A DNA stretch of 64,000 bases from Flavobacteriales bacterium (GTDB taxonomy: Bacteria > Bacteroidota > Bacteroidia > Flavobacteriales_F > PHOS-HE28). The position numbers and the translations under genes are program-made. This document shows, in pieces, positions 33,829-35,682 of the stretch. The stretch lies in assembly GCA_020852835.1 (NCBI GenBank), contig JADZAC010000065.1, forward strand, positions 1-64,000, read 5' to 3'. The notes beneath the pieces were generated by a model. It was given only the letters and a program-made list of their open reading frames with translations. It did not search any database and was not told where the DNA came from. Position 1 is the stretch's first letter; each line of letters begins with the position of its first letter.

Positions 33829-35103
33829 CTAGGGCACCAACTGCACGCTGCCGGTGAACGTCTCCGTATGCTGGCCCGCTTGCAGGTCGGCCACCCATAC
33901 GTAGTGGCCCGGGGCCAACACTGCGCCCTGGTTCTGCGCTTGGCCCGTCCATGCGCGGCGGGCATCGCTGGTGCTGTACACCAAGCGGCCCGCAGGGTCA
34001 TAGACGGCCAAATTGAATTTGGCTTGCAGCTGCTTCAGGGTTTGCGGCATGAAGCTGTCTTCATTGCCGTCACCGTTCGGCGTGAAGGCCTTGGGCGCGG
34101 CCAGGTCGAAGTCGCGGTCTATGATCAGTTCCTTCACCTTGCGGTCTGTGCACCCCGTGGCATTGGTGACGGTCTGCACCACTTGGTAGGTGCCCTTCTT
34201 GCGGTATACATGGTCAGGGCTGGGCTCGGTGCTCGTGGTGCCGTCACCCAGGTCCCACTGATAGCTGTGCGCACCTTCGGCACGGTTCTCGAAATGCACG
34301 CGGGGCACCTGACCGGGGAATTCCAGCTTTACCATGTTGAAGGTGGCCAACGGCGCCTCATGGATCACGATCATGCCACTGCTGGGCTTATTGCGCATGG
34401 TACCCGCCCCGGCGGAGGACATGGAGAGCATCACCTGGTAGGTGCCCGGCTTGGTGAACACATGGTCCGGGTTGGCTTTGTTGCTGAAGTTCCCGTCACC
34501 GAAATTCCACAAATAGATGCCATCCTCGGGCATGTTGTCCACCGTGAAATTCACCGGGTCGCCCGGGCAGGTCTCTTTCACGCTGGCACGGAAGGCCGAT
34601 GCCGGGGTTTCAGGTGCTGCTTGGGAGGTGGGGGCTGCCGGAGTTGGCTTGCCTGCGGTATGGCGGGCGGGATCAACGTTGCCGCTCTTGGGCCTTGGAG
34701 TTGCTGGGTTGCCGTTGTGCGAAGGTGCAGTTGCCGGTCGGGGCTGCGGTGCACCTTCAACACGCTCCCCAAGCGGCCCGCCCGTTTCAGTTACGCCTGC
34801 ATTGACCGCTGCGGAAGCTGGTTCAATGCCGGGTGCCGAGGGGACTTCCACGCTGGTTTGGGTTTCCGCCAATTGGCTGCCTTTGTCCATGCCCAAGTAA
34901 TAGGCTGTGCCTCCGATCAACAAGCCTCCGGCCAGGAGCAACCCGGCGACCAGCGCACGCCCGTGGCCCCACCCCTGTACACCGCTGGACAAGGCACGGT
35001 CCATCTGTGCCCAATCCGCAGCGTTGTAAGGCACCTCGTAGTGCTCCAGTTGCGCTTTTACTTGCCGCTCAAATGCATCCATGTCGTTGGGCTTCTCCAC
35101 CAT
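33829..35103 (-). CDS. Membrane-anchored PKD/CTD protein, likely anti-sigma partner
   Basis: 424 residues with no cleavable signal peptide. Residues 1-48 are a hydrophilic helix (FERQVKAQLEHYEVPYNAADW) like the cytoplasmic part of proteins encoded after ECF sigma genes in Bacteroidota. Residues ~50-70 form one membrane helix (ALVAGLLLAGGLLIGG). A Pro/Ala-rich linker (~80-165) may cross the periplasm. Two PKD domains follow (YLWNFGDGNFSNKANPDHVF near 200, YQWDLGDGTTSTEPSPDHVY near 295). The C-terminal ~80 residues (AFTPNGDGNEDSF, FNLAVYDPAGRLVYST) resemble a type B T9SS domain. Only three bases separate it from the sigma gene. The anti-sigma role is inferred from position and architecture. Confidence 0.8.
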   Translation of the reverse strand: MVEKPNDMDAFERQVKAQLEHYEVPYNAADWAQMDRALSSGVQGWGHGRALVAGLLLAGGLLIGGTAYYLGMDKGSQLAETQTSVEVPSAPGIEPASAAVNAGVTETGGPLGERVEGAPQPRPATAPSHNGNPATPRPKSGNVDPARHTAGKPTPAAPTSQAAPETPASAFRASVKETCPGDPVNFTVDNMPEDGIYLWNFGDGNFSNKANPDHVFTKPGTYQVMLSMSSAGAGTMRNKPSSGMIVIHEAPLATFNMVKLEFPGQVPRVHFENRAEGAHSYQWDLGDGTTSTEPSPDHVYRKKGTYQVVQTVTNATGCTDRKVKELIIDRDFDLAAPKAFTPNGDGNEDSFMPQTLKQLQAKFNLAVYDPAGRLVYSTSDARRAWTGQAQNQGAVLAPGHYVWVADLQAGQHTETFTGSVQLVP

Positions 35104-35106
35104 TGT

Positions 35107-35682
35107 TCACCGCGGGGTACGATCGTTCTTTTTCAGCAATTGCTTCAGGTTGGCTTTGGCTTTGGCCAAGTTGCTTTTTGAGGTTCCGATGTTGATGTCC
35201 AATACTTCAGCGATCTCCTTGTGGGTCATCTCCTCGAACACATAAAGGTTGAAGACCGTGCGGTAGGCCGGGGTGAGCTTCTGCATGGCATTGATCACGT
35301 CGGCCGGTTTGAGGTCGGCCCAGCTGTCCTCCTCCGGGGTGGTCTCCTCGGGAACCTCCTCGAACTCTTCCATGCTGCGGTCCTCGCCCAAGAGCAGGTA
35401 GGAATGCTTGGACCGCCGGAAGTAGTCGATGGCGGTGTTCACCATGATGCGCCGGATCCAGCCCTCGAAGCTTCCGGCGCGGTTGAATTCCGCCAAGTTG
35501 CGGAATACCTTGATGAAGCCGTCCTGCAGAATATCCTTGGCCTGGTCGTGATTCTTGGTGTACCGCAGGCAGATGGCCATCATTTTGCCATAGAAGGCCT
35601 CGTAGACTTGCTGCTGGCTGCGGCGTTCGCCGGCCAGACAGCCGTCGATCAAGCTGTCGTAACCTGCACCAGATGGTTCCAT
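35107..35682 (-). CDS. ECF-type RNA polymerase sigma factor
   Basis: About 192 residues from [20 protein letters not shown]. Region 2: [20 protein letters not shown], then [17 protein letters not shown] and [20 protein letters not shown]. Acidic linker [14 protein letters not shown]. Region 4: [20 protein letters not shown] and [20 protein letters not shown]. This is the Bacteroidota ECF type that regularly precedes a membrane PKD or barrel protein. An earlier in-frame ATG at 35751 (MAQQDLELA) is an alternative, just downstream of a weak -7-like TATCTTCA at 35764-35771. It forms a two-gene operon with the PKD/CTD protein. Targets unknown; the adjacent adhesins are candidates. Confidence 0.93.

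Follow-up and report, generated by a model that had tools for sequence, protein, structure and literature searches.

A 64,000-nucleotide stretch of a Flavobacteriales contig (hereafter the window) harbors an ECF sigma factor gene followed by the gene for a 424-residue membrane protein that is very probably an anti-sigma factor and that ends in a domain resembling the C-terminal domain (CTD) of type B T9SS cargo. For the locus as a whole we favor, with some reserve, a variant of the Dma-type anti-sigma factors in which a CTD mimic would gauge the CTD/PorP branch of the T9SS and the sigma factor would be released to the cargo and PorP genes. The features on which this reading is built are listed in Table 1.

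Table 1. Features of the sigma/anti-sigma locus, in positions of the window
Feature	Position	Strand	Basis or remark
ECF sigma factor gene, 191 aa	35107..35682	-	Pfam/NCBIfam, sigma tree; ATG start, TGA stop
Anti-sigma-like membrane protein with CTD-like C-terminus, 424 aa	33829..35103	-	ATG 3 nt after sigma stop
Candidate autoregulated ECF promoter, GGCAACC-N15-CGTCT	35702..35728	-	19 nt 5' of sigma ATG
Residues 1-48, cytoplasmic two-helix segment, probable sigma-binding region	34960..35103	-	W31 invariance, pLDDT
Residues 50-70, single transmembrane helix	34894..34956	-	Hydropathy; helix in predicted model
Residues 71-164, disordered Pro/Ala-rich tether	34612..34893	-	pLDDT mostly 43-62
Residues 165-330, PKD pair with invariant C179 and C318	34114..34611	-	Pfam, alignment, pLDDT mostly 88-98
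Residues 333-424, CHU_C / type B CTD-like domain without RWG	33832..34107	-	Pfam, NCBIfam, RWG comparison
First downstream gene, type B CTD T9SS cargo, 1106 aa	30356..33676	-	Probably same unit as the sigma pair
Second downstream type B CTD T9SS cargo, 1749 aa	25075..30324	-	Pfam, NCBIfam

The sigma protein has Sigma-70 regions 2 and 4 without the middle regions (Pfam/NCBIfam; Sigma70_r2, E = 2e-16, and Sigma70_r4_2, E = 2.8e-15, in Pfam). The original prediction placed the start of the second gene three bases after the sigma stop, which was borne out (35103 versus 35107 on the minus strand). Its description of the product also stood as far as the membrane helix, the linker, the two PKD domains and the missing signal peptide are concerned, whereas the tail, which it likened to a type B sorting signal, is derived from a CTD and not canonical, since the RWG motif is missing. 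Pfam recognizes a CHU_C domain at residues 336-422 (55.7 bits, cut-off 27) behind two PKD_4 domains (99.5 bits), and the NCBIfam type B sorting domain is matched marginally (36 bits for a cut-off of 35). Neither a Sec nor a cleavable N-terminal signal peptide was found in the protein; about 48 cytoplasmic residues come first, followed by one hydrophobic helix at about residues 50-70 and a low-complexity linker. In a full-length model predicted without the sigma factor, the PKD and CTD parts have high confidence and the tether is disordered. A fold search with this model returned PKD/Ig-type adhesin domains only; because no solved type B CTD is known for comparison (PMC12618676), this search says nothing on the partner of the CTD. 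Downstream of the pair, the 1106-aa cargo protein combines CUB, P-domain and PKD modules with a canonical, RWG-containing CTD (Pfam/NCBIfam), and a downstream CTD/PKD protein is found again in most loci of the genus. The promoter and the downstream cargo genes are probably part of the sigma/anti-sigma unit.

The gene is widespread. A search with residues 1-84 recovered it in nearly all genomes of the genus and in other families, with a protein length of about 410-470 aa, and 143 of 296 genomes of the class contain a match to an N-terminal profile (E up to 0.01). The layout is kept in the 24 other genomes that were read first and in 59 relatives altogether, far beyond chance. A survey of how often sigma factor, membrane helix, PKD and CTD occur together, one of the checks attached to the original prediction, gave 59 CTD-type relatives from about 13 families of the class, the sigma gene lying immediately 5' in every one of them with a gap of -29 to +75 nt; the fetched relatives are the best matches plus a chosen spread, a non-random set from which the proportions of classes are not estimable, and those with names come from metagenome assemblies labelled Flavobacteriales or Bacteroidetes. 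A sigma gene immediately upstream likewise accompanies almost all relatives of the N-terminus. Hydropathy gives a single membrane helix in 59/59 relatives (median 1.84). The cytoplasmic part carries the motif FExxxKxxLExYEVPYNxADWxxLExxL, its consensus in the aligned proteins being FExxxKxSLExYEVPYNSADWxxLExxL, and eight positions, among them W31, C179 and C318, never vary in an alignment of 46 diverse full-length proteins. Among the relatives, the tether that leads from the membrane helix to the PKD pair has a median length of 100 residues (quartiles 92-108) and is unconserved in sequence.

This layout recalls the Dma factors of Bacteroides thetaiotaomicron, which consist of a sigma-binding segment, a membrane helix, a disordered tether and a beta-barrel (PMC13088901). 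An ECF sigma neighbor, an N-terminal segment, one helix and a long tether are common to both, a likeness of layout; the sigmas paired with Dma factors are of group ECF21. However, Dma proteins end in an outer-membrane beta-barrel of their own, whereas the 424-aa protein ends in PKD-PKD-CHU_C, and the control exerted by Dma2 extends to vesiculation and genes of glycan use, not to T9SS adhesins (PMC13088901).

The assignment as an anti-sigma factor, already proposed from the window, is supported by the constant sigma adjacency, the conserved cytoplasmic motif, the recurrence of this motif on Dma-like barrel proteins beside related sigmas and its predicted ordering in the presence of the sigma factor. 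The profile search that had been recommended for the N-terminus came out negative: no named anti-sigma domain was matched in residues 1-48 by Pfam, NCBIfam or PDB sequence searches. As for the recommended structure prediction with the sigma factor, the sigma stop is in frame with the next gene, so that the natural read-through could be folded as a single chain, and sigma and partner were folded in this form, together with those of relatives. In the predicted fusion, judged by pLDDT, partner residues 18-37 reach 91-93 beside the sigma factor; when the full-length protein is modelled on its own, residues 21-40 stay at about 75-77. The motif is thus predicted more confidently in the fusion, and the contact itself is only predicted; the models support, but do not prove, that residues 1-48 contact the sigma factor. 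The predicted sigma is arranged like the anti-sigma-bound forms of SigW (rmsd 5.2 A over 158 residues, Z 14.1) and CnrH (rmsd 5.7 A over 149 residues), whereas the rmsd to RNAP-bound sigmas is about 26 A, a comparison to be read knowing that AlphaFold may default to a compact sigma. CnrY and RsiW have a short cytosolic segment preceding a membrane helix, and the predicted sigma matches the inhibitor-bound sigmas of their complexes (4cxf, 5wuq). They differ from the protein described here in that its N-terminus has no named anti-sigma domain and in that CnrY and RsiW have no T9SS-type domain.

The cytoplasmic motif is not restricted to CTD-ended proteins. It is also present, in up to about five tandem copies, on proteins ending in a beta-barrel (OMP_b-brl_2) beside related sigmas, which the N-terminal profile picks up as well; the genome of the window has two such barrel-ended pairs on contigs C12 and C85 (barrel by sequence appearance) and one further CTD-ended pair on C92. 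The latter, at about 14293-15905, is a second sigma/anti-sigma pair near further type B cargo genes, and its partner (357 aa) carries the motif twice, together with a membrane helix, a long linker and a CHU_C domain that lacks RWG; PKD domains are missing. In family f11, the related sigma adjoins a protein in which several motif copies and a membrane helix are joined by a tether to a PorP_SprF barrel (PF11751; E = 1.9e-19 for L093, the three others scanned being also positive). Family f19 has a short anti-sigma-like protein, followed in 4/4 genomes by a gene for a PorP/SprF protein (E of 1e-62 to 1e-65). These short proteins (237-244 aa; L153, L157, L160, L162) end without any domain in a conserved tail, MGNEPxFGDMxDSSKGI..., which may contact the neighboring PorP/SprF protein. 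A maximum-likelihood tree of the sigmas joins the CTD-type, PorP/SprF-fused and PorP/SprF-neighbor lineages in a supported clade (96/88), to which the barrel types and the CTD types C92, L089 and L191 do not belong. PorP/SprF proteins are experimentally known partners of type B CTDs (PMC9143113, PMC12618676); the genome of the window encodes 11 of them. Taken with the sigma clade, this indicates that within one sigma lineage the anti-sigma factor carries or adjoins either a ligand-like domain or its receptor.

Alignment of the regions upstream of the sigma gene within the genus revealed a common promoter motif, GGCA[AT]CC-N15-CGTCT, with 32 sites in 402 kb of genus loci for 0.1 expected and at least one copy at the sigma gene in each of the 27 loci (the window and 26 others). 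The window has no perfect match apart from the site 5' of the sigma gene. The motif recurs at the corresponding place 5' of the sigma in families f15, f50, f5, f32, f11 and f19, including both PorP arrangements, and its form conserved across lineages, GGCAACC-N14-16-CGTC, is of ECF type; we infer that the promoter is used by this sigma factor. Several genus genomes have two motif copies about 85 nt apart 5' of the sigma and others just one of these two (L073, L074, L077, L079 and L138 are the loci concerned), an apparent promoter turnover.

Targets beyond the sigma gene are visible in several lineages. In f19 the motif also occurs about 30 nt before the porP start codon (4/4 genomes). Among eight AT-rich genomes, 24 of the 29 motif sites are intergenic versus 2/29 for a control pattern, and a start codon follows 5-75 nt downstream for 16/29 sites versus 1/29. 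The non-sigma targets that can be read to their end in two f15 genomes, others running off contig ends, are all T9SS cargo (6/6): four type B adhesins, of which three have SprB repeats, and two proteins of type A. When nine more genomes were scanned, the motif again stood at the sigma gene, at PorP and at secreted PKD proteins, as well as at some unrelated genes; in all, several sites in other genomes precede unrelated genes, which speaks against the scheme. The proposed link to the T9SS is supported by the PorP/SprF fusion or neighbor in the sister lineages and by the common promoter 5' of PorP and T9SS cargo genes; control of the sigma by secretion state, as the original prediction has it, would be a further, hypothetical step. 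Likely targets of this sigma are T9SS cargo genes and, in part of the lineages, those for PorP/SprF, and the periplasmic end of its partner is likely attuned to the type B branch. In the GC-rich genome of the window a relaxed motif is not enriched (19 sites versus 35 for the control, not counted as evidence), and no copy of the motif was found upstream of either downstream cargo gene; hence the regulon there may be the operon alone. As the two cargo genes have no promoter copy of their own, they would, if they are regulon members, be reached by read-through from the sigma promoter. In the same genome, a large gene for a secreted protein, probably a giant type B cargo, is preceded at about 106 nt by a relaxed motif that could be due to chance (L289, G000:C44:45121-45147). 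In addition, the motif precedes the gene for a membrane protein of about 147 aa, apparently of one family, at L291 (G000:C54:14753-14778) and L327 (G080:C57:46234-46259); it is a possible further regulon member in two bacterial families.

The nature of the CTD-like tail is informed mainly by the RWG motif. RWG (or QWG) is present in 38/38 cargo CTDs over cut-off in the genome of the window and in 49/50 neighboring cargo CTDs of other genomes, but in none of 58 sigma-linked CTDs. In a tree of CTDs the CTD-type set forms nearly one clade (90/94), with C92, L089 and L191 outside, a topology compatible with one or more origins. In F. johnsoniae, each of five conserved motifs of a type B CTD was shown to be required for secretion (PMC12618676); RWG is not equated here with any of them. 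The loss of RWG makes it most likely that the tail is not exported as cargo, and the simplest reading is that of a CTD-derived domain kept in the cell as a retained mimic. The 424-aa protein resembles type B cargo such as SprB and PG1035 in the succession of PKD and a CHU_C/TIGR04131-type CTD (PMC9143113, PMC12618676), and differs from it by having no signal peptide, by its anchoring in the inner membrane and by the missing RWG.

The loss of RWG could also mean that PorP binding was lost. In a rival reading the protein would be a true anti-sigma factor whose PKD/CHU_C end is only a stable sensor fold in the periplasm, or one that binds peptidoglycan or another ligand, T9SS contact having disappeared. 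The absence of RWG from all sigma-linked CTDs, an NGDG loop that is degenerate in several relatives and the prediction of the end as an ordinary beta-sandwich are in line with such a sensor, which we nevertheless consider rather unlikely because the sister sigma lineages place a PorP/SprF barrel at the same position or next to it and because PorP and T9SS cargo genes have the promoter motif in front of them. It is unlikely, too, that the CTD passes through the T9SS translocon to be retained on the cell surface by a PorP/SprF barrel, with the N-terminus remaining in the inner membrane, a Dma-like tether across the envelope with its barrel in trans. Such an arrangement agrees with the N-terminus, helix and tether being common to the barrel-ended proteins of C12 and C85 and to the PorP-fused proteins, and with a fairly constant tether whose 100 residues could span the periplasm when extended; the absence of RWG in 58/58 CTDs speaks against it, as does the finding that motifs within type B CTDs, among which RWG may or may not be, are needed for secretion in F. 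johnsoniae (PMC12618676). Finally, it is very improbable that the protein is normal T9SS cargo, a reading that the original prediction had also rejected, with an odd signal that is cleaved late or not at all and an incidental sigma neighbor: T9SS cargo of this genome typically ends in PKD-CHU_C, but the protein has a conserved cytoplasmic motif ahead of the helix, no signal peptide and a sigma neighbor in 59/59 relatives, and RWG is missing only in sigma-linked CTDs.

In the favored scheme of a Dma-like anti-sigma factor with a CTD mimic, residues 1-48 would bind the sigma factor, as the models suggest, and keep it in the cytoplasm, and the single helix would anchor the protein in the inner membrane. 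The disordered tether of about 100 residues would let the two PKD domains and the modified type B CTD reach across the periplasm, where the mimic may compete with real cargo in sampling a PorP/SprF-like barrel or the translocon, a contact to which we give slightly less than even chances. A change in this contact would free the sigma, by a putative conformational or proteolytic step and in a direction of signaling that is likewise presumed, and the freed sigma would transcribe its own operon together with adhesin and PorP/SprF genes. More tentatively, an export-defective CTD on the anti-sigma factor might compete with adhesins for PorP/SprF shuttles and so meter cargo against shuttle, the sister lineages with a PorP/SprF barrel on the anti-sigma factor treating the same problem from the receptor side.

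Several parts of this scheme are already known, namely ECF-T9SS links (SigP, SM6), CTD proteins in signaling (PorA) and the Dma factors. The PorXY-SigP/PorA system of Porphyromonas gingivalis, of which the original prediction cited PorX/PorY/SigP as a T9SS-sigma link of different architecture, is similar in that an ECF sigma is tied to the T9SS and receives its signal by way of a CTD protein, but PorA is a surface protein acting via a two-component system and no membrane-anchored, CTD-bearing anti-sigma factor is found there (PMC7712824). The SM6 promoters of Flavobacterium psychrophilum are also of ECF type, with a CGT box at -10, and lie 5' of T9SS genes and of one sigma/anti-sigma pair; their targets are T9SS machinery, unlike the cargo and PorP targets described here, and the available part of that report gives no architecture for the anti-sigma protein of the pair (PMC9723704). 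A literature search, mostly without subscription papers, found no described anti-sigma factor with a type B CTD or PorP/SprF end, and no published account of how cells match the amounts of adhesin and PorP/SprF. Cells seem to require type B adhesins and the PorP/SprF proteins that partner them in matched amounts (PMC12618676), and the locus is a candidate matching device, with an inhibitor that bears a ligand-like domain in one lineage and a receptor in another and with a promoter 5' of adhesin genes as well as of receptor genes. The Dma class is widened by it, too, in that the outer end of such regulators appears exchangeable for other modules, so that the cytoplasmic motif could be used to find more of them. 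This motif occurs in one to about five tandem copies (L093, L096, L180, L184 and others), as if one membrane protein could hold several sigma molecules.
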